IMG/VR virus record: IMGVR_UViG_3300031566_000406
Span: 1-22,219 of that record
Origin: a virus
Length of the DNA stretch: 22,219 nt
Strand: one strand, 5' to 3'
Part shown: positions 7,990 through 22,219 of the stretch, in pieces
Layout: the number at the start of each line of letters is the position of its first letter
Numbering within the stretch: the first letter of the stretch is position 1
The notes under the pieces: model-generated
The model's database searches: none
Seen by the model: only the letters and a program-made list of their open reading frames with translations
What the model was told of the DNA's origin: nothing
Position numbers and translations under genes: made by a program

Positions 7990-8884
7990 AGAACTGAAAG
8001 CTGAAGCAATCGCTAGAGGCGATATTGTAGACGAAGTTGAGGAAGAAGAAGAAGACGAGGAAGAAGACGAGGAAGAAGAAGAAGTCGTCGAGGAAGAAGA
8101 AGTCGTCGAGGAAGAAGAAGAAGACGACGAGCCCGGCGAGGACCCGGACGAAGAAATCCAGGTTCCTAAGGCACGTTTTGACCAGGCCCAGAAAGCTGCT
8201 CGTAAACGCCAGCGTGAACTTGAAGCGCGTATCGCGCAGATGGAGAGAGCGCAGGAAAGTGAGACAGTAGAATCAGATATTTCTACGTTGCAGACGGAGA
8301 TAGAGGAGCTTGAGGATAAGCACGAGAACGATCTTCTGGAAGGCAATCTTGAAGAAGCTAAAGCTGCCCGCAGGTCACTGGCCACCAAGCGCGACGCGCT
8401 TTTGGATTTGCGCATTGCTGAAAAGAGCAATGCCGTAGGCGAAGCTGCTATCCAGCAGATGCGTTATGATGCGCAGCTCGCTCAGCAGGAAGCCGCGCAT
8501 CCTAGTATGAACCCGGACGCGGTGGAATTTGATCAGGAAGTAGCGAACGAGGTCTCAGTCCTGATGAATTCATTCCAGGCTGGTGGTTTTAACATGGTGG
8601 CTTCGCTGAACAAAGCCGTCCACTATGTACTTGGCAATGGCGATCCAGCACCCGGTACAACTGATACGGACATCATCCGTACAGAACGTGCGAAAAAAGC
8701 TCGTAAAAAAGCGCTGGAAACAATTAAAAAGACCCCTAGTGATTTGAACGATGTAGGGCGTAACTCTGACAAAGCCGGTCGCGACGACGGCCTGCCTGAT
8801 CCGTTGAAGATGACCCAGAAGCAGTTTGACAAGCTTACCGAGAAACAGCTTGCTGCATTACGCGAAGACAAGATGACACACTAA
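7973..8884 (+). CDS. head scaffolding protein
   Basis: The 303-residue protein lies between portal and capsid genes, the usual place for scaffold. It has an extremely acidic segment (residues ~19-62, almost all Glu/Asp with Val pairs) and a predicted coiled coil (~66-145, KARFDQAQKAARKRQRELEA and onward). A Gln/Ala/Met region follows, then a basic helical C-terminus (ERAKKARKKALETIKKTP and a final TEKQLAALREDKM). In P22-type phages the basic C-terminus of scaffold binds the coat protein, and the same is likely here. The family diverges quickly, so the assignment rests on composition, size and position. The Glu-rich stretch is nearly all GAA/GAG/GAC codons. Confidence 0.8.
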   Translation: MSKTSEELKAEAIARGDIVDEVEEEEEDEEEDEEEEEVVEEEEVVEEEEEDDEPGEDPDEEIQVPKARFDQAQKAARKRQRELEARIAQMERAQESETVESDISTLQTEIEELEDKHENDLLEGNLEEAKAARRSLATKRDALLDLRIAEKSNAVGEAAIQQMRYDAQLAQQEAAHPSMNPDAVEFDQEVANEVSVLMNSFQAGGFNMVASLNKAVHYVLGNGDPAPGTTDTDIIRTERAKKARKKALETIKKTPSDLNDVGRNSDKAGRDDGLPDPLKMTQKQFDKLTEKQLAALREDKMTH

Positions 8885-9336
8885 TGGGCGTCACATACAA
8901 CAGCCTTACGCAGAATATGCTCAACGGGCATGACGATATGTTAGATGCGATGTCACAAATTACCGGCGCTACGCAAACTGCCACCGACATAAATTACCAA
9001 AAGCAGGCTATGGACCAACTGTCCTCATATTATAAGAACAGACTGGATAGCCTGGCTTATGATGCTATGAACCACCAGACCGCGAAGGAGGAAGACTTCG
9101 AGGTACTACGTGACTTCTTAGTTGACATGTGCGCGGGCACTTTCTCGGAGGAAGCTCCGTCACAGGAAGAATGGACGAAGCTCCGTGATCTGGTTAAAGC
9201 AACTGCTGTAGAGCACGCTCTGTTGAACCGGGAGGAGAAAAAGGCCGTAAAAAAGCCGGGGCTCTTCGGAGCGGGGATAGCCGGAGACAGAGTGTTGGAG
9301 GGAAACGAGGAAGCCCTACGAATTTTTCAGCGCTGA
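8884..9336 (+). CDS. small helical protein ending in a capsid-like motif
   Basis: This 150-residue gene starts at an ATG overlapping the scaffold stop by one base (TAATG). Residues 1-125 are mostly helical and unrecognised. Residues 129-145 (GAGIAGDRVLEGNEEAL) match 14 of 17 positions of capsid residues 68-84 (GDGIAGDRTLEGNEEAM), yet 11 of the 14 shared codons differ at synonymous positions. The frame then ends at TGA 9334. A run of five T at 9323-9327 would allow a -1 shift into a 45-codon extension that is again capsid-like. It could be a minor head protein, an assembly regulator, or a relic of an ancient capsid duplication; the sequence alone does not decide. Confidence 0.65.
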   Translation: MGVTYNSLTQNMLNGHDDMLDAMSQITGATQTATDINYQKQAMDQLSSYYKNRLDSLAYDAMNHQTAKEEDFEVLRDFLVDMCAGTFSEEAPSQEEWTKLRDLVKATAVEHALLNREEKKAVKKPGLFGAGIAGDRVLEGNEEALRIFQR

Positions 9337-9461
9337 CTGAAGAGCAGAAGAAGATGTGGGCGGGAACTATGTGGACGGCTGGTCAGAAGTCTTCGCTTCT
9401 GGGTAAGTTCCAAGGAAAATCAGCCAGTCTCCTCATCATAGACGATCCAATTAAAGCCTAA
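9321..9461 (+). pseudogene. -1-frame extension with capsid N-terminus-like and TerL-like sequence
   Basis: In the -1 frame relative to the preceding gene, 46 codons are open to TAA 9459. They start NFSALTEEQKKMWAGTMW, which aligns without gaps to capsid residues 5-22 (NFAALTDEAKTIWSMDMW), and continue with 13 identities over 32 residues to about capsid residue 36. The last residues, LLIIDDPIKA, resemble the Walker B strand of this phage's own large terminase (VLIVDDPIKN, 164-173). There is no start codon or ribosome-binding site for this piece, so it is either reached by frameshifting at the T5 run or is a dead remnant. Confidence 0.55.
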
Positions 9462-9465
9462 ACAC

Positions 9466-9492
9466 CTAGCCCTCTTTACGAGGGCTAGCTTT
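9466..9492 (+). terminator. stem-loop terminator candidate
   Basis: CTAGCCCTC (9466-9474) pairs perfectly with GAGGGCTAG (9480-9488), loop TTTAC, followed by a short CTTTAA. It starts 4 bases after the TAA of the -1-frame extension, not after the TGA of the main frame. This fits a transcript whose coding region ends at 9461. Confidence 0.6.
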
Positions 9493-9624
9493 AAGTGCTA
9501 CTATCGTAGTCCGAAGTCCCTATGCGACAGTTAGGGAGGCGAGCTAAGAGCCCACACTTGCAGTCGCTTCGTTGGTGCGAGATTCCAACAAACTAAATCT
9601 TTTAATCAAGCAAGGAGTACTCGC
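9493..9624 (+). promoter_or_regulatory. structured leader ahead of the capsid gene
   Basis: No gene is seen here. TACTATC (9499-9505) echoes the leftward-block repeat. Two hairpins follow: TCCCTA/TAGGGA (9517-9537) and GTTGG/CCAAC (9571-9589). A strong AAGGAG lies 8 bases before the capsid ATG. A capsid promoter or a stable 5' leader for high expression is likely, but no clear -35/-10 is seen. A tRNA was considered and does not fit. Confidence 0.45.
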
Positions 9625-10716
9625 ATGGCGAATACAAACTTTGCGGCGCTAACAGACGAAGCAAAAACCATCTGGTCGATGGATATGTGGAAGCACGCCC
9701 GCAATCACTCATTTATGAATCAGTTCACTGGAACAGGCAGTAATGCCATGATCCAGCGTATTACTGAACTGAAAAAGACCGAAAAGGGCGCGAGAGCGGT
9801 AATTACATTACTCTCCGATCTGGAAGGCGACGGCATCGCAGGTGATCGTACGCTGGAAGGTAACGAGGAAGCAATGAAGTCCTATGACAAAGTCATTAGG
9901 ATTGATCAGCTTCGTCACGCGAATAAAAACGAAGGCCGCATGGCCGATCAAAAATCAATCGTCGAGTTCCGTGGCAATAGCCGCGACAAGCTCGCTTATT
10001 GGTTGGCAGATCGCCTTGACCAAATGGCATTTCTAACTCTGGGTGGTTTCTCTTACACCCTGAAGCCAGATGGTACTACCCGTGTGGGTTCCGACCTTCC
10101 TTACCTCGAGTTTGCAGCTGATGTAGTAGCCCCTACCGCGCTTAGGCGTTGTCAGTGGGATGCAACCACTGGTTTGAATGTTGGTGGTGCAACTACTGAT
10201 ATCGTTTCTGACGATAAAATCACCTGGGAAACCTTGGTACGTATGCGCGAACTGGCTAAAAACCAGTATGTTCGTGGTCTGCGTCCTGAAGGCGGACTCG
10301 ATGAAATGTTCCATGTATTCATGACGCCTACTTGTATGGCGAACTTGAAGATGGACAACGACTACATGTTGAATCTCCGTCACTCAACTGCTGCTGGTGT
10401 TAATAGCAAGCTGTTCGGTGGTGGCTCTGTCAACGTCGATGGACTGGCGATTCACGAATTCCGTCATGTACCACATAGTTCCCTTTGGGGTTCTGGTGCA
10501 GTATCGGGTTCAACAGTTCTGATGTGTGGTGCTCAAGCTTTGGCTTTTGCCGATATCGGTAACCCGATTTGGGTTGAGAAAGAGTTTGATTATGACAATC
10601 AGCCTGCGATCTCCGTTCAGAAAATGATGGGCTTCCTGAAGCCTCAATTTAACAGCATCTATGCAAGCAACACCGTACAGGATCACGGCGTTATCACTTG
10701 CTACGTTGCAGATTAA
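9625..10716 (+). CDS. major capsid protein, N4-gp56 family
   Basis: This 363-residue protein is the shell subunit. It contains the family's hallmark stretches: GSNAMIQRITELKKTEKGAR (38-57), GDGIAGDRTLEGNEEA (68-83), IDQLRHANKNEGRMADQKS (93-111) and DKLAYWLADRLDQMAFLTLG (121-140). I recognise these as the N4-gp56 major capsid family, and the length is normal. The start has the strongest ribosome-binding site in the region (AAGGAG, 8-base spacing), and the leader is set off by a terminator-like hairpin, both consistent with high independent expression. A small beta-rich gene follows 12 bases after the stop. Confidence 0.93.
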   Translation: MANTNFAALTDEAKTIWSMDMWKHARNHSFMNQFTGTGSNAMIQRITELKKTEKGARAVITLLSDLEGDGIAGDRTLEGNEEAMKSYDKVIRIDQLRHANKNEGRMADQKSIVEFRGNSRDKLAYWLADRLDQMAFLTLGGFSYTLKPDGTTRVGSDLPYLEFAADVVAPTALRRCQWDATTGLNVGGATTDIVSDDKITWETLVRMRELAKNQYVRGLRPEGGLDEMFHVFMTPTCMANLKMDNDYMLNLRHSTAAGVNSKLFGGGSVNVDGLAIHEFRHVPHSSLWGSGAVSGSTVLMCGAQALAFADIGNPIWVEKEFDYDNQPAISVQKMMGFLKPQFNSIYASNTVQDHGVITCYVAD

Positions 10717-10728
10717 AGGAGACTGATA

Positions 10729-11115
10729 ATGGCTATTACTAAAAATACAGCTCGTCAGTGGCCTCTGACTGCTATTGTAGATATTACTGCGGCTATGATT
10801 CCGGCTGTAGCTGCTTACGAGGCAATTGATTTGCCTGGTGGCGCTACTGTTATCGGCGGTGTGCTTGAAGTTATCACTGTCGATGCCGGTGGCGGCACGA
10901 TTGCAGTTGCAGTTGGTGCTGACGTTTTGTTAGCAGCTACAGCAACGTCTAGTGCGATCCAGACGAATTTTACACAATCGTCTGCTGAAACAACCGCTCC
11001 AGATACTGTGGACGTTACAGTTGCAACAGCCGTGCTGACTACTTTTGTAGGTCGTCTTATCGTTACGTATGTTCTTGACGGTAGATCTAACGAAGTACAG
11101 CCGGTCTCGGCCTAA
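10729..11115 (+). CDS. small beta-rich protein, possible capsid decoration
   Basis: The 128-residue protein is rich in Ala, Thr, Val and Gly and alternates beta-strand-like segments (ATVIGGVLEVITVDAGGG, DTVDVTVATAVLTTFVG). AGGAG lies 8 bases upstream of the ATG. It is cotranscribed with the capsid gene and followed by a strong hairpin, which suggests it is made in similarly large amounts. Position and composition fit a head decoration protein, but no family is recognised, so this is inference. Confidence 0.65.
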   Translation: MAITKNTARQWPLTAIVDITAAMIPAVAAYEAIDLPGGATVIGGVLEVITVDAGGGTIAVAVGADVLLAATATSSAIQTNFTQSSAETTAPDTVDVTVATAVLTTFVGRLIVTYVLDGRSNEVQPVSA

Positions 11116-11121
11116 GCTATA

Positions 11122-11149
11122 ATCACAGGGGGCAACCGCCCCCTGTGAT
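11122..11149 (+). terminator. perfect 12-bp stem-loop after the capsid unit
   Basis: ATCACAGGGGGC (11122-11133) pairs perfectly with GCCCCCTGTGAT (11138-11149), loop AACC. No U-tract follows, so it may act as a partial terminator or a 3'-end stabiliser separating the highly expressed capsid pair from the connector genes. Confidence 0.7.
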
Positions 11150-11173
11150 CACTTAATTAAAGGAAACTGAGCC

Positions 11174-11623
11174 ATGCCATTAATGAAACTAGCAAAGAAC
11201 AGAGTTTATGCCAGCACACTAGGACACGTTATCCGCTTCGTAAAAGACGAACCAGTGTTTGTGCACCCTATTATGCTGAAAGAATGCGGCGCTATTGGCG
11301 CTGTCGTAGTCCCAGGTAAAGGAAAAAAACCTAAAAAAATAGTAGTGCGTAGCGAAGATGAAGCTATTGCAGATATGAACAAAATTGTAAATACGGCTAA
11401 AGAGGCGGAGGGCCTTCCGGAATCTCCGGCGCAGCCAGTCGCTCCTGTTGACCGTATGGAAATGATTCTTTCTTGTGTTAGGGCGCTCATAGAGCGTAAT
11501 GGACGCGGTGACTTTACTGCTGCAGGCATTCCGAATCTTAATGTCCTGGGCAAAAAAACTGGCTTCCGAGTAGACAAGAACGAGTTGAAAGAAGCTATGG
11601 CCACGATAAATGACCCCGAATGA
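11174..11623 (+). CDS. small head-region protein of unknown role
   Basis: The 149-residue protein starts MPLMKLAKNRVYASTLGHVI with AGGAAA 9 bases upstream. The N-terminal half (GHVIRFVKDEPVFVHPIM) is a beta-rich pattern I recall from small genes following the capsid gene in phages of this capsid type. A charged, Pro-containing linker leads to a helical C-terminal domain with GDFTAAGIPNLNVLGKKTGFRVDK; this 'FTAAG.PN...L...TGF.V...E' pattern is shared by various small phage structural proteins. It overlaps the adaptor gene by 14 bases. A connector or neck role is inferred from position only. Confidence 0.65.
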   Translation: MPLMKLAKNRVYASTLGHVIRFVKDEPVFVHPIMLKECGAIGAVVVPGKGKKPKKIVVRSEDEAIADMNKIVNTAKEAEGLPESPAQPVAPVDRMEMILSCVRALIERNGRGDFTAAGIPNLNVLGKKTGFRVDKNELKEAMATINDPE

Positions 11624-12284
11624 CCTGCTCGAATTATTCCGACTAGAAACGGATGATCTGTTTGAACCATATCTATGGTCGGACAAAGAGTTTTTCATTT
11701 ATCTTAACGAAGCCCAGGATAAATTTGTGCGGGAGATGGGTGGCTTTGCGGACCGTCGTTCTGCTATAACTCGTGTTAAATACAAAATTGGTGATCAGTT
11801 CAGACCCTACGACCCACGGATCTTAAGGATCCGTGGTGCTCAGGACGAAACTAACAAGTTCATCGGTATTGAAAACCTCGACAGTATAGGCTCTCCTACA
11901 ACTGATGATTACGGCGCTCGATCGAACGCCGGTCTGGACGACGGTTTGACTGGTCCGATCCAGTTTCTTATCACTGACATCGATAATAACGATATGCAGC
12001 TATACCCTCTTCCAGACCACGATGGAACCTTGCAGTTGTTTGTGCAGCGGCTTCCGATAACCCCGATAGAAGATGGCGACAGTATTTTTGAGCTTAAAGA
12101 CATATACCACTTGGATCTGCTGTCGTGGGTGAAGTATCGTGCCTACATGAAACAAGATGTCGAAACCTTTGATGGTACGAAAGCAGCTTCTTTCCGTAAT
12201 ATGTTCACAGATGCAGCTAAGAGCGCGACGAAAGAAAAAGCTAGTCGTGAAGATCGTAAACGAACAGTTAAATTTAGTTGGTAA
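11610..12284 (+). CDS. head-tail adaptor protein (P22 gp4-like position and type)
   Basis: The 224-residue protein begins MTPNDLLELFRLETDDLFEP and has LWSDKEFFIYLNEAQDKFVR, the helical opening seen in phage adaptor proteins that bind below the portal. The middle holds DPRILRIRG and IQFLITDIDNNDMQLYPLPD; the C-terminal helices (LLSWVKYRAYMKQDVETFDG, then FTDAAKSATKEKASREDRKR) match the family style. Adaptors of this kind close the portal and carry the tail. The start overlaps the previous gene and lacks a strong ribosome-binding site, so it is probably translated by coupling. Confidence 0.75.
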   Translation: MTPNDLLELFRLETDDLFEPYLWSDKEFFIYLNEAQDKFVREMGGFADRRSAITRVKYKIGDQFRPYDPRILRIRGAQDETNKFIGIENLDSIGSPTTDDYGARSNAGLDDGLTGPIQFLITDIDNNDMQLYPLPDHDGTLQLFVQRLPITPIEDGDSIFELKDIYHLDLLSWVKYRAYMKQDVETFDGTKAASFRNMFTDAAKSATKEKASREDRKRTVKFSW

Positions 12285-12286
12285 CT

Positions 12287-12883
12287 ATGTCTGACACGAA
12301 AAATGTACCTATAACAATTAAGCAAGGCGCTACCTTTATCAAGAAATTTAATTGGTACGGCGGCGGCAAGGTTGTTAAAGAGATTGACGATGTTACAACT
12401 GGTTGCCCTACCAGGGTAACAGTGGCTGCGCACGGACTGCCCGCAGGTGCGGATACTCCAGTTTATATAGAAGATGTCAAAGGTGCCCGTAGCTTAAATA
12501 GTAAGGGTAAGGAAGTTATAGCGACGTACGTCGATGCTAGTAACTTCGATGTAGATACCGGTACCCGTGGCGAAACCTATACTGCTGGAACTGGATGTGT
12601 ACATTATTTTGCGCCTAAGACCTTAACTGGTTGGATCGCACGTATGGATATCCGTGAAGATATAGACGATGCGACACCTTTGGTAGCGCTTACTTCGGCC
12701 GGTGGTGATATAGTTATAAATACAACGACAGCAGAGATTCAGATTACTATTACTGCGACAGTTACTGCTGCGTTAGACTTCGAAGAAGGAGTCTATGATC
12801 TGGAGCTGGAAGACAGTTCGGGTAATGTTACCCGTTTAACCGAGGGTGTCGTCACCTTCATAAAAGAAGTTACTCGACCATAA
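12287..12883 (+). CDS. virion-associated protein with FCCH-like beta domain
   Basis: I start at ATG 12287 (MSDTKNVPITIKQGATFIKK); the TTG at 12278 lies inside the preceding gene. The 198-residue protein starts with a short strand pattern (ITIKQGATF.K.F.W) common in phage proteins placed after the adaptor. Its central part (RVTVAAHGLPAGADTPVYIE ... NFDVDT) resembles the small beta domain that databases label ubiquitin-activating E1 FCCH-like in phage proteins. The C-terminal half (GWIARMDIREDIDDATPLVA ... GVYDLELEDSSGNVTRLTEG) is again beta. A baseplate or tail-tube-associated role is likely but unproven. Confidence 0.65.
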   Translation: MSDTKNVPITIKQGATFIKKFNWYGGGKVVKEIDDVTTGCPTRVTVAAHGLPAGADTPVYIEDVKGARSLNSKGKEVIATYVDASNFDVDTGTRGETYTAGTGCVHYFAPKTLTGWIARMDIREDIDDATPLVALTSAGGDIVINTTTAEIQITITATVTAALDFEEGVYDLELEDSSGNVTRLTEGVVTFIKEVTRP

Positions 12884-12897
12884 CAGGAGATTGAAAG

Positions 12898-13338
12898 ATG
12901 GCTTTGGACACAACAATTCAGCAGCAGCTCGCAGCTAATATGCTAGACGAGATTACTGCTTTACTTGACGCAGGTACTCTCGGTGCGCTTATCGAAGTAC
13001 GCGTTGGTGCACCTACTGCTACGACAGAAGAGGCGGATACGGGAGCGATTTTGGCACACCTCGTGTGCAGCACAACTTCGTTCCCACCAGCTACCGCCGC
13101 CGCTACCGCGACGATGGCAGCGAGCGCTATTACCTCAGATACGTCAGCCCCCGCTACTGGCCAGGCCGGTCACTTTACGGCTGGTGATTCCAGTACTACG
13201 GATGTCATGGCGAATAAGGTAATTAACGGCACAGCAGGCGTAGGTGCTTCGTTTGATTTGAATTTTGATGATGACATGATTGTAACTGGCGGGACCGTTG
13301 CCATTACAGGGTGGACGATCAATATGCCTACAAACTAA
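12898..13338 (+). CDS. Ala/Thr-rich small virion-like protein
   Basis: This 146-residue protein starts MALDTTIQQQLAANMLDEIT with AGGAG 8 bases before the ATG. After an N-terminal helix (ANMLDEITALLDAGTL) it turns into a low-complexity Ala/Thr/Ser/Gly region and beta strands ending in GGTVAITGWTINMP. This helix-then-beta layout is common in small virion proteins next to fibres. I do not recognise a named family. The overlapping +1 frame ORF (12965-13222) is a shadow produced by GC-rich third positions. Confidence 0.65.
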   Translation: MALDTTIQQQLAANMLDEITALLDAGTLGALIEVRVGAPTATTEEADTGAILAHLVCSTTSFPPATAAATATMAASAITSDTSAPATGQAGHFTAGDSSTTDVMANKVINGTAGVGASFDLNFDDDMIVTGGTVAITGWTINMPTN

Positions 13339-13355
13339 TAGGGGAGTAATCTCCT

Positions 13356-14135
13356 ATGGCTGATACCAAGATCAGCGCTGATTCGAATCTAGCGTCCCCA
13401 GCTTCTGGGGACCTGATTCCTATTGTCGACATTGATGTCGCAGATTCTCTAAAGAATAAGACCGTTACCTGGTCTCAGATCCAGACTGCGTTCGATCTTT
13501 CTACATTGCCTGATGGTACAGGGTTGGTTACTTCTGTCGATGAAGTGATCTACCTCGATGCCGGGGTGCAGAAGCGCAAGCGGTTTGCAGAGATCGGTCT
13601 GTCAGAGTTCCTACAGGATGGGGGCTTCGCATTATCGAGCCATAACCATACTTCCCTTACCAGTGTGACCAGTATTTACGGCACGACAATGCAAGCGGGT
13701 TATAATTCATCCACTTGTATTGACTATAACCTAACTACATTCGATGTAGTGTTCGGTGGTCTTGTTGATTTTAGATTCTCGGACGGTGGTGCATTCCTAG
13801 CAAACGGAAAAATAACCTCATACTCCGGAACGATAACCTCCGATAGAAAACTCAAAAAAGACTTTACTCAAATAGAAGACGCCGTAGTCAAAGTAAAACA
13901 ACTCACTGGCTATGAGTACACAATGCGAAAGACTGATCAACGATCAGCGGGCTTGGTTGCACAAGACGTACAAAAAATACTGCCTCAAGCGGTAGAAACT
14001 GAAAAAGACCTGCAAACGGACGAGCCATATCTAACCCTTAATTACAACGCAGTTATCGGGCTCCTGGTAGAGTCGATCAAGGAGCTAACTGCGCGAGTAG
14101 AGGAGCTGGAAAATGACCGTCACAACCGGGCCTGA
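13356..14135 (+). CDS. tail fibre with S74 intramolecular chaperone
   Basis: This 259-residue protein has an N-terminal phage fibre attachment-like region (MADTKISADSNLASPASGDL), a short central part with HNH-T repeats (SSHNHTS) and a C-terminal S74 autoprocessing chaperone (about 160-255). The chaperone contains SDRKLKKDF with the Ser162/Lys167 pair, spaced as in the known S74 catalytic dyad, then GYEYTMRKTDQRSAGLVAQD and LNYNAVIGLLVESIKELTAR, the terminal trimerisation helix. In this family the chaperone folds the trimer and cuts itself off. The fibre part is short for the family, so it may be a minor spike or adhesin. It overlaps the next gene by 23 bases. Confidence 0.88.
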   Translation: MADTKISADSNLASPASGDLIPIVDIDVADSLKNKTVTWSQIQTAFDLSTLPDGTGLVTSVDEVIYLDAGVQKRKRFAEIGLSEFLQDGGFALSSHNHTSLTSVTSIYGTTMQAGYNSSTCIDYNLTTFDVVFGGLVDFRFSDGGAFLANGKITSYSGTITSDRKLKKDFTQIEDAVVKVKQLTGYEYTMRKTDQRSAGLVAQDVQKILPQAVETEKDLQTDEPYLTLNYNAVIGLLVESIKELTARVEELENDRHNRA

Positions 14136-15096
14136 AATCTCAATCACCGACTTAACCACCGAGTTGAATCTGACAGCGACAAATGAAGCCTCGATGGATG
14201 ATGCCATTATCGGGAATATGATCGACTCCGCTGTTTGGACGTCCGGAGGAGAACACGAACTTGATGATTGGTACGGGGCCATTAATGGCATTGGGTACCT
14301 GGGATTCTGGGGAACTACCACGTATACCAAGACGGATGTTTCCGTCGGTCCAAACTACTCAGAAGTACAATTAAGTGTTAACGACAATGGGCTGTTCTCC
14401 ATAAATTTGTATGAAGATGGTGATCTAACATTAACGACACAAGAAGCCTGGAACGATGGTGATTGGGACGCAACAGCCTATACCGGCTACCAGGTAAAGT
14501 GGACAAAAGTTTCCGGGGCTGATCCGGATAATACCAATATGACGGTTAATACTTGGTACACTCTGACCGCCCAATTTATTTATGTAAGAGCCACAACGGA
14601 TACAAACGTAAATGGTGTTTATGACGTTACGATTAGGCAGTCCGGTGATGTCTGGTCAGAGGTTGTACAGAGATTCGATTTCACCGCTGATTACACGGTA
14701 CCAATATCGATTGGCGGCGATTGGCCCGTAGCCTGTGGAAACTGGCCTGACTATTTTGGGGCATCGAATGGTACAGCGTATTGGGACTTTCGCTCTACTG
14801 GAGAAATGTATGCGGAAGGAAACGGCTCGACGTTGTATGATTACCTCAACCAAATTGCTGCTGGCAACGGGGATGATTTTTGGGTTAAACATGTTAAATC
14901 ATCAGGAGATAGTTTCAATTATGGTAATGCGCAGACGGATGATAACTATTACCAACTGAATGCTACGAGAACTTTCGGGCACTCGGTTGTTTCCAGTGGG
15001 GCTAGAACATGGACCGGAACGGTCTATATAGCTGAAGATGCCAGTGGAACCGGGGCCGTTAGTAAAGCTTGTTCGCTAGTGGCCGAGAAAATTTAG
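14113..15096 (+). CDS. beta-rich virion protein, probable fibre component
   Basis: This 327-residue protein starts MTVTTGPEISITDLTTELNL, with AGGAG about 6 bases upstream inside the S74 gene. The N-terminal ~60 residues are acidic and helical, with DWYGAINGIGYLGFWG after them; the rest is beta-rich with many Trp, Tyr, Asn and Gly (DGDWDATAYTGYQVKWTKVS, WDFRSTGEMYAEGNGST). There are no metal or catalytic motifs I recognise. The first line (ISITDLTTELNLTATNEAS) resembles N-terminal segments of phage proteins that hold fibres to the tail. It is probably a receptor-facing or fibre-linking virion protein. Confidence 0.6.
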   Translation: MTVTTGPEISITDLTTELNLTATNEASMDDAIIGNMIDSAVWTSGGEHELDDWYGAINGIGYLGFWGTTTYTKTDVSVGPNYSEVQLSVNDNGLFSINLYEDGDLTLTTQEAWNDGDWDATAYTGYQVKWTKVSGADPDNTNMTVNTWYTLTAQFIYVRATTDTNVNGVYDVTIRQSGDVWSEVVQRFDFTADYTVPISIGGDWPVACGNWPDYFGASNGTAYWDFRSTGEMYAEGNGSTLYDYLNQIAAGNGDDFWVKHVKSSGDSFNYGNAQTDDNYYQLNATRTFGHSVVSSGARTWTGTVYIAEDASGTGAVSKACSLVAEKI

Positions 15097-15109
15097 AGGA
15101 GAAAGACAT

Positions 15110-15424
15110 ATGGCTATTGAACTAACAACACCAGTGCCAATTCCGGATACTACTTTCCAGGGTATTACCAAAATAGACTTCCACTTCCCGCATTTTAAAG
15201 ATACGGGTGAGGTTATGAAGTTGAACAAGCCAGATATCGTTGCGGTCTTTACCGTAACGACCTGGACGGGTGATGGTACCGTATTATCAGAGGCTCGCCA
15301 CAAAGCAGATTTTCCCGATTGGCCTGCCAACTTCACGATCGATGTACAATCAGTCTATTCGCGGATTGAACAGTACGCGGAGTCACAGGGCTTTATCGGC
15401 GCTGGAACACCTGAGAGTATTTAA
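15110..15424 (+). CDS. unknown small acidic virion-like protein
   Basis: This 104-residue protein starts MAIELTTPVPIPDTTFQGIT with AGGAG about 9 bases before the ATG. It has FHFPHFKDTGEVMKLNKPDI, a beta stretch (IVAVFTVTTWTGDG) and a helical C-terminus (SVYSRIEQYAESQGFIGAG). I do not recognise a family. It sits in the fibre gene group, 13 bases after one gene and 2 before the next, and is likely a minor virion or assembly protein. Confidence 0.6.
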   Translation: MAIELTTPVPIPDTTFQGITKIDFHFPHFKDTGEVMKLNKPDIVAVFTVTTWTGDGTVLSEARHKADFPDWPANFTIDVQSVYSRIEQYAESQGFIGAGTPESI

Positions 15425-15426
15425 AA

Positions 15427-15726
15427 ATGCCTTGCAATGGCAACAGTACAGGGCACTGTTGTTGGCTGGAAGGTAATGTCTGTGACCATCTCGAAGAGGA
15501 CACAATGCCTGGACGAAAGTGGGTGTGCGGATTACGGAGAAAGCTAGGTAACTGGGACCTGGTTCTGGCGTCACCAGAGTACAAGACTGATGTAGCACCG
15601 AAATTGAATCCAGGTATTAATTGCAAGGACTGGCCTGATAAGCCGTTAACCAAATGCTTCGAGTGCGGTTTTGCTGTAAAGTCTTCAGATAAAGGCAATC
15701 GATGGGGTACTGATAATGACAATTGA
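15427..15726 (+). CDS. cysteine-rich small protein
   Basis: The 99-residue protein has eight cysteines: C3, C11, C12, C19, C34, C66, C77 and C80. The opening MPCNGNSTGHCCWLEGNVCD, then EEDTMPGRKWVCGLRRKLGN, is a pattern I recall from small phage proteins found next to fibre genes (CCW...C..LEE...PGRKW.CGLR). The last pair, KCFECGF, could bind metal. The function is unknown to me. It overlaps the giant repeat gene by 11 bases, so their translation is probably coupled. Confidence 0.65.
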   Translation: MPCNGNSTGHCCWLEGNVCDHLEEDTMPGRKWVCGLRRKLGNWDLVLASPEYKTDVAPKLNPGINCKDWPDKPLTKCFECGFAVKSSDKGNRWGTDNDN

Positions 15727-18700
15727 GTATCTAGTACCCGGTGCGGCGGCGACAACAACCACCACGCAGATACTTGCAACGAATACCTATACCCTGATAG
15801 ATGATGGGGCCACGAACGGGCTTGTAACTGACGCTGATGGTTCCGTCAATGATACCAATATAAATGACACTTCGGCGGCTGGCACTGACGCGATATGGGC
15901 GTTGGCTGATCTCGCTGCATTTGGTGCTTTAAACGGGGCAACTTTCAGAGTCAGAGCGCGGACAGTCAATCCCGGCTCGGGCGACACATATACATACACA
16001 TTTGCGCTCGCTATTGGCGGCGACACGATCAACATAACTTGGTCTAACGCTGATGAAAATGCAGGGTTTGCGAACAGGACAGCAGACCTTTCAGGTGAAG
16101 CTGGTTATCCGTACACCGAAGCACAATTCAACGCCGCCACAGTAACACTTACCCAGAGTGCTTATCTCAAAGACAAAGGGCCAGATGGCTTTTATCTGGA
16201 CGTTGATGCGCTTGAACTTGAGGTAGATTACGCGCCAACATTCACGGGTACAATTACCCAAACTCTTGGCTCTATAAACCAGTCCATGACTGGCGTTGTT
16301 CATGACATAGGTGTTATTAACCAGACGATATCAGCCGTGTCGCAGATCATGTCTGGTATTGTCCATACAATAGGTAACATTACCCAGCTGTTACCCAGGA
16401 TCACTCAGTCCGGAGCCGGTGAGCATGATCCTCCGGTGTTCTCTGGTGTTGCTACACAAACCCTGCCTTCTGTAACCCAAGCGGGGACTGCTGAGTTTCT
16501 TGCAGCAGATAACAACCGTTCAGGCGTAATCATTCAGACCTTACCGACTCTCACACAGTCAGGGACTGCTAGTGCCCCATCTACGGGGGCGATTACTCAG
16601 ACCTTGCCCTCTATAACCCAGAGCATGACAGGTAGAGTCTGGGACATAGGTCAGATAAACCAGACTCTACCTGCTATTACTCAGTCGGGTACTGCTAGTG
16701 CTCCATCTACAGGTGTAGCCACACAGACCTTAGGCTCCATTACTCAATCTAGTGCAGGTACCTACGATCCGAAGGACGTAACCAGCGTTGCGATCCAGAC
16801 ACTGCCGTCTATTACTCAGACCTTAGCAGGGATCGTCTGGGATATAGGGGAAATAACGCAGACCCTGCCGTCTATAAACCAGGTTGCTACAGGTACCCAC
16901 GTAGCACCAGTTAGATCAGCTGTTGGTATACAGACTCTTTCGGCTGTAACTCAAAACCTGGCTGGCACCGTATGGGACATAGGGGTTATAACCCAGACGC
17001 TACCCGCTATTACTCAGTCAGGTACGGCCACTCACGAAGTACCTGTATTTAGTGGCGTAATTACTCAGGTTCTATCTTCTATTACTCAGTCTGGTACAGC
17101 TACATGGCTCGAGGGTACTGATACTGGTGCGGGCGCTCAGGTATTACCGTCTATCAATCAGGTCCTGGCGGGCACGTTCGTTCCGCTCATGACTAATGTA
17201 GAGGCTGTTGGTACGCAGACACTACCGGCTATTACTCAGTCTGCTACTGCTACGAACGTATGGCCACAAGGGGTTGCAGTACAAACCTTAGGCTCAGTTA
17301 ATCAATCAGGAGCGGGTACACACGTCGCTCCCGTGTTCTCGGGTGTTGCGACCCAGACTTTCCAACATTCTCCTTATGTTACGACGGGTAAAGAGATCGA
17401 AGCCGATTTTACGGGGCTTGATTCTTTTACCAGAAATGAATTGTGGACAGGTGGAAATGCTCAGAAGCTAACTTTCGCAGCGCATATGCGCGTACCGGTA
17501 AGTGCTGCGAGTTCAAATGTTGTATTCACCACCAATGCGTATTCCCTGTACTGGACTTTCCAATGGTGGTTCGGCGGGGCGACCCAGAACAAGTTTAGCT
17601 TCACCACCGCCAACGATAATACTAACGATTATGCTCAAGTCCAAACAGCGGGCAAAGATGTCCACGGACTAGAAATAGGCGACTGGTTCACCTTGTTTTA
17701 CAGCATAGATTGGAGTGCTGTAGGTGCCCCGACAGTTAATGTCTATGTCCAGAAGAAGGGTAGTTCGACCGTCACCGACATCTACTCTGGTGCAACTTTC
17801 ATTAACGAAGATGATGGCCCGGTTACCCTCTTATTCGATGATACGCAAGGCGGTGCTGCAGTAGGTAAACACGCCTTTTATGGCTCTGAAACGGGAGTAT
17901 TCGAAGTATCCGAATACTTCATGACCAATGAGTACGTTGATTGGTCAGATCCAGCGGAACGACTGAAGTTCACTGATGTTAATGGCCGTCCAGTTGGTCT
18001 CGGTCCGACTGGTGCAGCTCTTACTGGTACACAGGCTAAGATTTATGCTCCTGATGGTGACCTGACCAACAATCTTGGCTCCGGTGGTAACTGGACTGAA
18101 GAAGGGACGATCGATAACAGCTCTACTTCACCCTCTGACGGTGCTGTAGTTAGTAGTTGGTTGAACCAATCAGCTACAGCCAAATACTGGGATTTCGAGG
18201 CTACTGGTACGCAGACTCTACCATCTATTACTCAGTCTGGTACAGGCCAATACTGGGATAACGGAGGGCCGATAACTACTACCTTACCAGGACTTAACCA
18301 GGCTCTAACTGGTACATGGCTCGAAGGCACTGATACTGGAGTTACTGGCCAGACCCTACTTCCAATTAGCCAGGCTTTAACAGGTTGGTATTGGCCAGGG
18401 ACGAAGGTAGGTACTACGACACAGACCTTACAACCCGTTTCTCAGGTAGTAACAGGTATTTCCTGGGAAGGTATCGATACTGGAGTTATTACTCAGACCC
18501 TACCTTCCATTACTCAGTCTGGTACAGCAGAGTTTGCGCCTGGGACTAGTACTGGTGTTATTACTCAGACTCTTAGCTCTGTTGCCCAGTTTGGAACGGC
18601 TGAGTTTGACAGAATATATACAGCCTCTGCCTCACAGACTTTACCGAGTATCACGCAAACAAGTGCAGGTACCTTCGGACCGGGAATTACCACCAGTCTG

Positions 18701-19291
18701 GGTTTCATACTGACACTTCCTGCTATTACGCAGAGCATGGTTGGTAAAGGTTCGAAAGTCGCAACAAGTGCGCAGACGCTTCCGGCTATTACTCAGAGCT
18801 TAACTGGTACCTTCGATCCAGGTACCAAGACTGCGTCATGTACGCAGACCCTACCTTCTATAAATCAGGCTCTTATAGGTAGCCGAACTCGTGTCGGTGT
18901 CGTTACTCAGACGTTAGGAGTTCTAAGCCAAACTCTTAGTGGTGAATATGCTCCAGGTATAACTACCGGCATTATCACCCAAACGCTCCCAGCTATTACC
19001 CAAGTTGCGATAGGTACATGGGATACGGGCACTGATACTGGTGTTATAACGCAGACTTTATCTTCTATTACTCAGACAGGTTCGAGCTTCTTCTTTATAC
19101 CGCTCAGTTTCGATCCTCTTGTCTGGGAGCAACCCGAAGTTGAACAGCTTGTATACCAGCAGGAAGCAGAGCAGTTTACATACGAGCAGACAACTGAAGA
19201 GCTTGTTTGGGAAGTAGTCACAGAAGAATTAGTCTACGAGGTCGAAGAAGACGAGTTCCTATATGGTAATGACCATTTGACGGGGGACTAG
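15716..19291 (+). CDS. giant modular repeat virion protein A (likely fibre)
   Basis: This 1191-residue protein has five parts. Residues 1-178 form a beta-sandwich-like domain with FRVRARTVNPGSGDTYTYTF. Residues 179-549 hold about 17 repeat units of 20-26 residues with core ITQTLPSITQS. Residues 550-830 look like a concanavalin/LamG-type domain (DWFTLFYSIDWSAVGAPTVN, YVDWSDPAERLKFTDVNGRP). Residues 831-1122 hold about 13 more units. The final ~70 residues are an acidic aromatic tail of five or six 9-10-residue repeats (EQLVYQQEA, EELVWEVVT, EELVYEVEE). The LamG-like domain breaks into unit 17. GGGG lies 8 bases before the ATG. No enzyme motif is seen; a receptor-binding or capsid/tail surface fibre is likely. 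Confidence 0.75.
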   Translation: MTIEYLVPGAAATTTTTQILATNTYTLIDDGATNGLVTDADGSVNDTNINDTSAAGTDAIWALADLAAFGALNGATFRVRARTVNPGSGDTYTYTFALAIGGDTINITWSNADENAGFANRTADLSGEAGYPYTEAQFNAATVTLTQSAYLKDKGPDGFYLDVDALELEVDYAPTFTGTITQTLGSINQSMTGVVHDIGVINQTISAVSQIMSGIVHTIGNITQLLPRITQSGAGEHDPPVFSGVATQTLPSVTQAGTAEFLAADNNRSGVIIQTLPTLTQSGTASAPSTGAITQTLPSITQSMTGRVWDIGQINQTLPAITQSGTASAPSTGVATQTLGSITQSSAGTYDPKDVTSVAIQTLPSITQTLAGIVWDIGEITQTLPSINQVATGTHVAPVRSAVGIQTLSAVTQNLAGTVWDIGVITQTLPAITQSGTATHEVPVFSGVITQVLSSITQSGTATWLEGTDTGAGAQVLPSINQVLAGTFVPLMTNVEAVGTQTLPAITQSATATNVWPQGVAVQTLGSVNQSGAGTHVAPVFSGVATQTFQHSPYVTTGKEIEADFTGLDSFTRNELWTGGNAQKLTFAAHMRVPVSAASSNVVFTTNAYSLYWTFQWWFGGATQNKFSFTTANDNTNDYAQVQTAGKDVHGLEIGDWFTLFYSIDWSAVGAPTVNVYVQKKGSSTVTDIYSGATFINEDDGPVTLLFDDTQGGAAVGKHAFYGSETGVFEVSEYFMTNEYVDWSDPAERLKFTDVNGRPVGLGPTGAALTGTQAKIYAPDGDLTNNLGSGGNWTEEGTIDNSSTSPSDGAVVSSWLNQSATAKYWDFEATGTQTLPSITQSGTGQYWDNGGPITTTLPGLNQALTGTWLEGTDTGVTGQTLLPISQALTGWYWPGTKVGTTTQTLQPVSQVVTGISWEGIDTGVITQTLPSITQSGTAEFAPGTSTGVITQTLSSVAQFGTAEFDRIYTASASQTLPSITQTSAGTFGPGITTSLGFILTLPAITQSMVGKGSKVATSAQTLPAITQSLTGTFDPGTKTASCTQTLPSINQALIGSRTRVGVVTQTLGVLSQTLSGEYAPGITTGIITQTLPAITQVAIGTWDTGTDTGVITQTLSSITQTGSSFFFIPLSFDPLVWEQPEVEQLVYQQEAEQFTYEQTTEELVWEVVTEELVYEVEEDEFLYGNDHLTGD
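16250..17362 (+). repeat. coding repeat block A1, about 17 QTLPSITQS units
   Basis: Tandem units of 63-78 bp encode [V/A/Q]I[T/N]QTLPSITQS followed by one of a few linkers (VWDIG, ASAPSTG, THVAPVFSG, TWLEGTDTG, TNVWPQG). The last unit stops after QTF and leads into the LamG-like domain. Confidence 0.9.
18206..19080 (+). repeat. coding repeat block A2, about 13 units
   Basis: The same core resumes after the LamG-like domain with GTQTLPSITQSGTG. Linkers here favour TWLEGTDTG, EFAPGTSTG and TFDPGTKTA types, so this block differs in linker use from block A1. Confidence 0.9.
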
Positions 19292-19294
19292 GCC

Positions 19295-22219
19295 GTGGCT
19301 AATAGGTTCCTCAGAGAAGACGGTACTTATATCCTCAGAGAGGATGGCGGTTATCTACTGAGAGAATACCAGTATCTCTCTGGTGTAATTACTCAGACCC
19401 TCCCGTCTATAAACCAGTCTGGTACAGCTACGCACTTAGCGTTGTATGAGGGGGTTATTACTCAGACACTGCCGTCTATCAACCAGTCTGGTTCAGCTAC
19501 CCATGTAGCCCCTATATTTAGTGGTGTTATTACCCAAACGCTGCCCGCTATTACTCAGAGCATTTCAGGCAAGGTCTGGGACATAGGCGCTATAACTCAG
19601 ACACTGCCCTTCCTTGCACAATCAGGTGCAGCAACGCATGTAGCTCCGATATTCTCAGGTGTAATTACTCATACCTTACCTTCTGTTACCCAGTCTGCTA
19701 CGGGCGAGGTAACTAACGAAAAAGCAGGGGTTATCGTTCAGACCCTGCCTACTATTACCCAGAGCATGACAGGTATTGTCTGGGACATAGGTGTAATTAC
19801 TCAGACTCTATCGCCGATTACTCAGAGCATGTCAGGGGATGTTTGGAAGATAGGTGTAATTACCCAGACCCTCCAGCCTATAAATCAGTCTGGTGCTGCT
19901 ACACATGTAGCTCCAGTGTTCTCTGGTGTAATTACTCAGACCTTACCTTCTATTACTCAGTCTCTAACGGGTACATGGGCCCCAGGTACTGATACAGGCA
20001 TAATCGTACAAACGCTATCTCCTATTACTCAGTCTGGTACAGCTAGTACTCCACGCACTGGTGCTATAACTCAGACCTTAGGTGCGCTTAACCAGTCTGC
20101 GGCGGCTACAAACATCTGGCCCAGAGGCTCGATCACTCAGACGTTGCAGTTCATTACCCAAACTGGTACAGCCATCGCGCCATCTACAGGTGCTATAACA
20201 ACTAATTTAGGTCCGATAACAAGCGCGCTTACCGGCACAAACATATGGCCACAAGGGGCTATCACACAGACCTTAGGTGCTATTACTCAGTCTGGTACGG
20301 CCACTTATGACGCCGGTACTAAAACAGGTGTTGGTATACAGACCCTGCCATCGATTACACAGTCTGGTACTGCGACGTTCGTTGATGCGGGTAGTACTGA
20401 ATGTACGCCTCTGGATGCTATTGTCAGCTCCAGTGACTACGGTACCCCTAGCTATCTTGATCTGGACGACGATCCAGATTCCCCAGACGGTAACTGGACT
20501 GTCTGGGACGGTAACGGTGACGCAGACCTGCTGGCCTCGTTCCCTACCCCCTCTGCAGCTCCGTTAACAGGGGCGGACAAACAAGAATTTAAGATCCTCC
20601 TACGGAAAAATGCTACTGGTAACGATCCTGGCTATACCATCCACCTATATGAAAGTGGGTCAGCTACTTCTCCAACACATAGTGTTTCCGGAACACTGAC
20701 TGACGCTGGTGGAGATACAGTTGTAACCCTTACATGGGATGCGGGAGACCTCGCTACAGCCTCGGGAGCTAATGTCCAGCTATGGATGGAGCAAACCAGT
20801 GGTGGTACTGGTGGCGGACGACGCGGTGTAGAAATAGGTGCTATCCAGTGGTGCGCGAACATACCCAGTATTGTGTTCTGGGGGGCTACTACTCAGACCC
20901 TGCCGTCTATTAACCAGTCTGGGAACGCAACGTTCGCTCCGGGGACTAGTACTGGTGTTATAACGCAGACCTTAGGTGCGATAACACAGTCCGGAGACGC
21001 GGAATTTGTTCAGGCATTAGACAAGACGGGGGTTATAACCCAAGCCCTACCTTCTGTAACACAAGCCGCTACAGGTATCGTTTGGGATACGGGCGTTATA
21101 ACGCAGACCCTATCGTCTATCAACCAGTCTGCTACTGGCACCCACGAGGCACCTGTATTTAGCGGTGTTACTACTCAAGCGCTATCTGCTGTAACTCAAT
21201 CTCTCACGGGTATTGTTTGGGACACAGGCCAGATAAACCAGATTCTGTCGCCCATCAACCAGTCACTAACTGGTACTTTCGAAGTTCCTGTATTCAGTGG
21301 TGTAATTACTCAGTCTCTATCTTCTATTACTCAGTCTGCTGCAGGTATCGTCTGGGACATCGGCCAGATAAACCAGACACTGTCGTCTATTACGCAGTCT
21401 GGTACAGCTACCCATGTAGCGCCTATATCCAGTGGTGTTATTACACAAAGTCTGCTGACGATAACACAGGCATTAACAGGAATCGTCTGGGATACTGGTG
21501 TAATTACTCAGACTCTACCGTCTATCACACAATCGGGCGTAGCTACTCATGAGGCACCCGTATTCAGTGGTGTTATAGCGCAGGCTCTCCCATCTGTAAC
21601 CCAGGCGATGACGGGTACTGTTTGGGATATTGGTCAGATAAACCAGACGCTCTCGCCTGTTACGCAGTCTGGTGTAGCTACTTACGAAGCCCCAGTGTTC
21701 AGCGGGATTATTACCCAAACACTGGGTTCGATCACCCAGTCTGGTACAGCTAGTGCTCCGTCTACTGGCGCTATAACTCAGACTCTATCGTCGATCACCC
21801 AGTCTGGTACAGGTATCGTCCATGACATAGGAGCTATCAACCAGACACTGCCTGCCATTACACAGACCTTAGCTGGAACGTTCGCACCAGGAACTAGCAC
21901 TGGTTCGATCACCCAGACCTTACAGCCAGTAGCTCAGTCTGGTACAGCGGAGTTCACAGCTGGTGTAGAAGCTGTTGGCAATCAGACACTGGGGTCTATT
22001 ACTCAGTCTGGTACAGCGGAGTTCGCACCAGGAACCAGTACAGCGTCCATCACGCAGACCCTATCGTCTATCAACCAGTCTCTGGCGGGCAGTGCACCGT
22101 CCACAGGGGTTGTAACCCAAACACTACAACCAGTTACTCAGTCTGCTGCTGGCACCCATGAAGCCCCTGTATTTAGTGGTGCAATTACGCAGACACTACA
22201 ACCTGTTGCTCAGTCCTTA
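19295..22219 (+). CDS. giant modular repeat virion protein B, partial (runs off window)
   Basis: I translated this frame from GTG 19295 to the window end and found no stop, giving at least 975 residues. GGGGA lies 7 bases before GTG, which is only 3 bases after the stop of protein A. The start has three short repeats (FLREDGTYI, LREDGGYLL, REYQYL), a type of N-terminal repeat known in phage virion proteins. Residues ~30-369 hold 15 QTLPSITQS units. Residues 370-529 form a beta-sandwich-like domain (EFKILLRKNATGNDPGYTIH, LTWDAGDLATASGANVQLWM). About 20 more units run to the window end. It is clearly a paralogue of protein A and probably a long fibre. Confidence 0.8.
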   Translation, partial: MANRFLREDGTYILREDGGYLLREYQYLSGVITQTLPSINQSGTATHLALYEGVITQTLPSINQSGSATHVAPIFSGVITQTLPAITQSISGKVWDIGAITQTLPFLAQSGAATHVAPIFSGVITHTLPSVTQSATGEVTNEKAGVIVQTLPTITQSMTGIVWDIGVITQTLSPITQSMSGDVWKIGVITQTLQPINQSGAATHVAPVFSGVITQTLPSITQSLTGTWAPGTDTGIIVQTLSPITQSGTASTPRTGAITQTLGALNQSAAATNIWPRGSITQTLQFITQTGTAIAPSTGAITTNLGPITSALTGTNIWPQGAITQTLGAITQSGTATYDAGTKTGVGIQTLPSITQSGTATFVDAGSTECTPLDAIVSSSDYGTPSYLDLDDDPDSPDGNWTVWDGNGDADLLASFPTPSAAPLTGADKQEFKILLRKNATGNDPGYTIHLYESGSATSPTHSVSGTLTDAGGDTVVTLTWDAGDLATASGANVQLWMEQTSGGTGGGRRGVEIGAIQWCANIPSIVFWGATTQTLPSINQSGNATFAPGTSTGVITQTLGAITQSGDAEFVQALDKTGVITQALPSVTQAATGIVWDTGVITQTLSSINQSATGTHEAPVFSGVTTQALSAVTQSLTGIVWDTGQINQILSPINQSLTGTFEVPVFSGVITQSLSSITQSAAGIVWDIGQINQTLSSITQSGTATHVAPISSGVITQSLLTITQALTGIVWDTGVITQTLPSITQSGVATHEAPVFSGVIAQALPSVTQAMTGTVWDIGQINQTLSPVTQSGVATYEAPVFSGIITQTLGSITQSGTASAPSTGAITQTLSSITQSGTGIVHDIGAINQTLPAITQTLAGTFAPGTSTGSITQTLQPVAQSGTAEFTAGVEAVGNQTLGSITQSGTAEFAPGTSTASITQTLSSINQSLAGSAPSTGVVTQTLQPVTQSAAGTHEAPVFSGAITQTLQPVAQSL
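19382..20402 (+). repeat. coding repeat block B1, 15 units
   Basis: Units with the ITQTLPSITQS core and linkers shared with protein A. The 35-nt stretch 19757-19791 matches protein A's 16616-16650 at 33 positions, showing recent exchange between the two genes. Confidence 0.9.
20885..22219 (+). repeat. coding repeat block B2, about 20 units, cut by the window end
   Basis: The same core and linkers continue after the beta domain. It includes an exact higher-order array at 21032-21706. Confidence 0.9.
21032..21706 (+). repeat. higher-order repeat, 5 x 135 bp
   Basis: Ten successive units alternate strictly between a 21-residue type ending VWD[I/T]G and a 24-residue type ending [T/A][H/Y/F]xxPxxSG. 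Five 45-residue pairs fill 675 bp with no gap or extra codon. Confidence 0.9.

Follow-up and report, generated by a model that had tools for sequence, protein, structure and literature searches.

The gp38 adhesins of T-even-like phages (S16, T2 and PP01) are described as alternating glycine-rich motifs with hypervariable segments; when the latter are reshuffled as modules, receptor specificity is stated, in the parts of the reports drawn on here, to change (PMC6630733, PMC6851490). Collagen-like (Gly-X-Y) repeats in the antireceptors of Streptococcus thermophilus phages and in a virophage have been proposed as recombination hot spots, and repeat deletion has been linked to a new host in the sections of those studies used here (PMC7242381, PMC5601072). 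Protein repeats, as outlined by Persi, Wolf and Koonin in 2016, evolve in a biphasic manner, the copies diverging fast at first and each repeat then being conserved over long periods (PMC5120217). Phage Rad52-like recombinases, as far as the cited account goes, mediate homology-driven mosaicism that tolerates divergent sequence (PMC3945230). In this study, we report a repeat array carried by two adjacent genes, A and B, of a viral DNA record of the IMG/VR type, which was analysed as a whole (22,219 bases) and is referred to as the window.

The locus shares features with each of these systems, as they are portrayed in the sources above. As in gp38, conserved short motifs alternate with variable segments; however, the window core QTLPSITQ (within xxTQTLPSITQSGTA) is not glycine-rich and the array is thus not of the gp38 type, about 64 units lie in two genes as against the 10 motifs given for one tip protein, and the signal is an old one. 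As in the collagen-like antireceptors, the repeats lie within attachment proteins, an identity that is inferred for A and B; the array translations hold no Gly-X-Y triplets, which places them outside the collagen-like class, the unit is 21-26 residues long with exchangeable linkers, and no deletion was observed. Early divergence followed by long conservation fits the window array as well as the biphasic model, although here parts of units, and not whole units only, appear to have recombined. Exchange that tolerates divergence makes the Rad52-like enzymes a candidate mechanism, although their activity was shown between E. coli phages and prophages, and no recombinase was found in the window fragment. 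Viral attachment proteins thus gain a further case of modular shuffling, not proof of a running process, and the array provides DNA-level evidence that a phage surface protein underwent exchange of pieces smaller than its repeat unit.

The viral fragment and its two repeat genes

The window is the complete record, and PHROG matches were obtained in it for the large terminase, portal and major head protein genes. Its MCP is up to 57% identical, over 99% of the length, to those of Pseudomonas phages of the KPP25 group, and the head protein is 45% identical to that of Acidovorax phage AP1 and 41% identical to that of Aeromonas phage phiA008. Because of these identities the window is assigned, on its protein sequences, to a KPP25-like podovirus (Kochitakasuvirus relatives), of which it is a fragment; the terminase-portal-head order is also that annotated in CRPAP1904. 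A GAA-rich run at 8039-8131 encodes an acidic stretch, possibly a scaffold region, in a 303-aa protein between the portal and the major head protein, and a 25-nt direct repeat (2.2 copies) is located at 616-668, near the contig start.

Since the window represents such a phage, A and B were read as a tail-fibre or adhesin pair, and they are most likely two long repeat-rod fibres or adhesins in its tail module. This identity is drawn from gene context, with no family, PDB or confident structural match: the gene with the S74 domain, a fibre gene, and the KPP25 structural-protein homologue lie just upstream (Table 1), and the N-terminus of a distant repeat relative, contig L004, matches a minor-tail-protein family that neither A nor B matched directly. 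Searches of Pfam, PHROG and PDB sequences gave nothing significant for gene A, and the three genes between the S74 gene and gene A were without a PHROG family match.

Table 1. Features of the window (positions are those of the whole stretch)
Feature	Position	Strand	Basis or remark
Homologue of KPP25 structural protein	12278-12883		Downstream of head genes; about 33% identity
Short gene, C-terminal Peptidase_S74 (endosialidase chaperone) domain	13356-14135		Matches many tail-fibre families
Gene A, repeat protein of 1191 aa, probably a tail fibre or adhesin	15716..19291	+	ORF, translation
N-terminal non-repeat domain of gene A, 178 aa	15716..16249	+	
Repeat array A1-A16	16250..17344	+	Unit parse
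Non-repeat domain, 286 aa, inserted in array A	17345..18202	+	
Repeat array A17-A29	18203..19114	+	Unit parse
Acidic and aromatic C-terminal tail of gene A	19115..19291	+	Translation
Gene B, 975 aa, GTG start, open at contig end	19295..22219	+	ORF, translation
Repeat array B1-B15	19385..20401	+	Unit parse
Non-repeat domain, about 160 aa, inserted in array B	about 20402..20884	+	
Repeat array B16-B35, cut by contig end	20885..22219	+	Unit parse
Two-unit higher-order repeat, B18-B27, VWD(I/T)G and (A/V)P(V/I)xSG units alternating five times	21032..21706	+	
Core of A13 vs core of B22	17057..17101 vs 21302-21346	+	40/45 nt identical
Exact 30-nt core tract, B19/B33	21101..21130 and 22052-22081	+	Flanks unrelated
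Second core half and VWDIG linker, A6/B6	16616..16650 vs 19757-19791	+	33/35 nt; upstream differs

The two inserted non-repeat domains and the N-terminal domain of A were absent from the description given in the first-pass annotation. None of the three had a significant family or phage match outside the near-identical contig L002, which holds the first 141 residues of the N-terminal domain (the inserted domains were searched as nearly the same stretches as those of Table 1). No relatives of the inserted domain of A were found in viral contigs, and its single-sequence structure model (mean pLDDT 35.9) was too poor for use; BLASTP revealed no similarity between the inserted domain of B and the N-terminal domain of A. 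The tail of gene A differs from the remainder of the protein and reads as a pseudo-repeat (LVWE, LVYQ, FTYE, LVWE, LVYE, FLYG), and a 24-nt tandem repeat at 19308-19366, at the start of gene B, encodes LREDG-type repeats (FLREDGTYILREDGGYLLRE).

No such array was present in the examined stretches of the KPP25-group genomes CRPAP1904, AP1, phiA008, MW202615, KLEP18-1 and KPP25. The array is an accessory of the window lineage, also present in a second contig, L003. Among the 20 ORFs of this incomplete genome that were compared with PHROGs, a set without the small ORFs before 2790, there was no match for a reverse transcriptase with template repeat or an invertase with inverted repeats.

Repeat units and the association of cores with linkers

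The arrays were parsed into 64 in-register units, 29 in A (A1-A29) and 35 in B (B1-B35), the first beginning at exactly 16250, far above chance and close to the figure of about 65 given earlier. Each unit consists of a constant 15-codon core, with the consensus VITQTLPSITQSGTA, and a linker of 6-11 residues, 21-26 residues in all. The shared core QTLPSITQS noted in the first pass stands as a consensus and not as the literal core of every unit; the strict pattern QTLxx[ILV][TN]Q occurs 43 times, whereas over 1000 residue shuffles it appeared 0.003 times on average and never more than once.

Five linker types, defined by pattern, account for 41 of the 64 units: VWDIG (14), HVAPVFSG (13), SAPSTG (6), PGTSTG (5) and NVWPQG (3). 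The other 23 carry rarer or unique linkers, including small groups, pairs such as TWLEGTDTG (twice) and the truncated last unit, so that the linker set is limited, as had been claimed, but not as small as had been claimed. Linkers of the types VWDIG and then HVAPVFSG follow one another 10 times in A and B together, against 3.09 expected, and the dimers of the higher-order repeat B18-B27 are 60-71% identical to each other.

A structure model of an array segment, built from a 19-row alignment, was all beta with about two strands per unit (mean pLDDT 46.8); both models (46.8 and 35.9) were too weak for a fold search. A unit would plausibly fold as a pair of beta strands connected through a fixed turn, the linker forming an exposed loop, and the cores may together form a rod. 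No family of Pfam or PHROG matched the repeat, five core peptides were found in no paper searched, and general searches for fibre repeats returned only the precedents cited above. The repeat represents a new family, absent from all libraries searched.

The first pass had suggested testing whether core and linker trees disagree, and the two histories did disagree for the middle of the core and not for its ends. Core residues 4-12 carry no significant information on the class of the following linker, whereas such information is present at residues 13 and 15 (p=0.0005 for either). Residues 1 and 3 are informative on the preceding linker, and residue 1 is also associated, less strongly, with the linker that follows (p=0.0125, uncorrected). 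By DNA distance, codons 4-11 show no tie to the following linker (p=0.24) but codons 13-15 do (p=0.0002), while codons 1-3 and 4-8 follow the preceding linker (p<0.01) and codons 9-12 do not (p=0.57). Because of these associations, the sequence data place the exchange point around codons 9-12, the ITQS stretch. A neighbour-joining (NJ) tree of codons 4-12 kept a weak signal of the following linker (19 changes, a count not exceeded in 45 of 1000 shuffles), and one of codons 9-15 had none for the preceding linker (277 of 1000 shuffles). Among pairs of units that share an exact core tract of at least 14 nt, counting only units whose linker belongs to the five types, the linker class was the same in 9/40, which is at chance (0.23 vs 0.24 expected).

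Mosaic tracts and the age of the proposed exchange

Short stretches of identical DNA recur in the arrays in excess of shuffled controls. Shared 14-mers numbered 420 pairs, compared with 53.7 in synonymous-codon shuffles (0/60 as high), and 419 compared with 105 when the codons of each column were kept (0/300). In-register exact tracts of at least 14 nt numbered 138, against a mean of 47.6 and a maximum of 68 in 100 column-preserving codon shuffles, an excess that codon-pair preferences could inflate, since the tracts are short and column shuffles break codon pairs up. For the 106 of these tracts that lie in cores, mean flank identity was 0.29 in the preceding 18 nt and 0.32 in the 18 nt that follow the core, where the background is 0.33.

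The best pairs (A13/B22, B19/B33, A6/B6 and B2/B23) show sharp mosaic breaks. A13 and B22 are identical at 11/11 comparable synonymous codons and similar in the upstream linker (23/30 nt), and differ in the downstream linker (3/18); B2 and B23 have the second core half and linker in common and dissimilar DNA upstream. No exact repeat longer than the B19/B33 tract was found in the window arrays. The match between A6 and B6 had been recorded correctly in the first-pass annotation, as had the three occurrences of GTCTGGGACATAGG (at 16637, 19574 and 19778), but as a sign of exchange the A6/B6 match is not exceptional alone, being reached in 5/60 shuffles.

A change of serine codon class needs two base changes. 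The first serine of the SAPSTG linkers is AGT in 5/5, the serine of the PGTSTG linkers is AGY in 4/4, and serines at core positions 7, 8 and 12 have TCN codons in 81/89. Since the codon class is constant within the SAPSTG and PGTSTG types, linkers of one type in both genes appear to be related mostly by descent rather than by convergence, although a third type, HVAPVFSG, is mixed (8 AGY, 5 TCN). Mix-and-match is supported at the level of DNA.

These results bear on the possibility of plain, old tandem duplication, in which units diverged in place with no shuffling and selection or convergence made the same linkers recur on unrelated cores. Silent-site saturation, low third-base linkage and the two-unit higher-order repeat B18-B27 agree with such a history, whereas the exact tracts in excess of column-preserving shuffles, their junction to different linkers with flanks at background, and the linker-specific serine codon classes found in both genes (SAPSTG, PGTSTG) do not. 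Plain duplication is already weakened by these observations, and we regard it as unlikely. The relation of third-base linkage to distance was also considered as a discriminator and set aside; linkage is lost over a distance of one or two codons, and saturation would account for this no less than recombination.

The explanation that we favour, and hold to be reasonably probable, is that units were shuffled long ago through homology in the core and that the peptide modules have since been conserved for a long time, in two fibres or adhesins of a KPP25-like podovirus. Units would have been duplicated in the past, and linkers would have recombined with different cores, both within and between A and B. 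The exchange, judging from the mosaic tracts, would have been short and homology-driven, inside the conserved core DNA (ITQSGTA region), and divergence-tolerant phage annealing recombinases would be a candidate enzyme class; none was seen in the window, nor any other replication or recombination gene, and the window is only part of a genome. Silent sites have since diverged almost to saturation, and because the core and linker peptides stayed similar meanwhile, the modules would have been held by selection at the protein level. The benefit may have been changed binding or reach.

The age of this shuffling can be gauged from silent sites. At positions with the same amino acid in two units, the codon is also the same at a frequency of 0.43, compared with 0.38 expected from codon usage alone; for linkers of the same class, codon identity is 0.407 against 0.375 expected, and silent-site identity is 0.333 in L003 (0.351 expected) and 0.425 in L004 (0.406 expected). 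The best whole-unit pair of equal length is 82.5% identical. Pairs reaching a silent-codon identity of 0.8 numbered 23, against 9.3 expected and 20 at most, and some core tracts, such as A13/B22, look younger. Because silent sites are near saturation, the best pair reaches only 82.5% and the higher-order dimers only 60-71%, the bulk of the shuffling is judged, from these codon data, to be old. Recent duplication or conversion as the source of the repeats was ruled out by the silent sites; units are not near-identical at these sites, as concerted evolution would have them, a few short core tracts excepted. Conserved linker peptides can look freshly copied though their codons are almost fully scrambled, and peptide repeats alone are a poor guide to current recombination.

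The first pass had taken the arrays as a sign of ongoing unequal exchange or gene conversion, which would reshuffle them in present populations and vary the length and surface of the fibre. The mosaic tracts, a few of them long or identical at silent sites (A13/B22, 11/11; B19/B33, 30 nt exact), are what such a process would leave. Silent sites are, however, close to saturation in the window and have reached it in L003 and L004, whole units are no more alike than the figures above, and no recent whole-unit duplication or conversion was seen, so that ongoing exchange of this kind is quite improbable. There is an outside chance that a phage recombinase still swaps linkers at a low rate via 20-30-nt core homology, with populations differing in linker order (a "standing linker library"). 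If this were true, silent divergence would limit runaway deletion yet permit exchange through the core, giving a route to variation without a DGR or an invertase.

Related arrays in other contigs

Contig L002, from IMG/VR 3300031539, was the sole near-identical contig found. It corresponds to window 9381-16139 at 99.94% identity (4 mismatches) and ends 111 nt short of the array. Its differences are at 14469, 14476 and 14477, in the gene at 14113-15096, and at 16021, in the N-terminal domain of gene A, with none in 9381-14468.

An exact ITQTLxx..TQ pattern matched 74 viral contigs, of which only two, those behind L003 and L004, carried arrays. In genome contigs the same pattern gave 16 matches, 0 with an array, and another pattern search gave 37 matches, 0 confirmed. 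The P0002 search found no relatives in viral contigs. With tblastn, gene B and the L003 array returned nothing from phages, and the L003 array nothing from plasmids, in searches where the low-complexity filter may have masked the queries.

L003 is syntenic with the window (head protein 53%, portal 43%, the gene at 12278 52%), and L004 has only the repeats and one small gene in common with it. Import of units or linkers from other phages with the same repeat family, in place of internal shuffling, would draw on such sources, since related arrays occur in L003 (syntenic, MCP 53%) and L004, and the linker (F)APGTSTG is common to L003 and the window. Cores, however, resemble one another more within an array (identity 0.54-0.60) than across arrays (0.43-0.46), and the PGTSTG serine, AGY in 4/4 window linkers, is TCN in the 3/3 TFAPGTST matches of L003; import is accordingly very unlikely.

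The window, L003 and L002 contigs end in an array or within 111 nt of one, which would fit ongoing exchange, although exact repeats found in the window arrays are no longer than 30 nt. Contig ends have other causes, however, and L004 spans its array; the ends at arrays could reflect population variation or simply coverage. Close downstream of the repeat gene in L004, at 7628-12700, lies a gene of 1690 aa that begins with collagen-like Gly-X-Y triplets.
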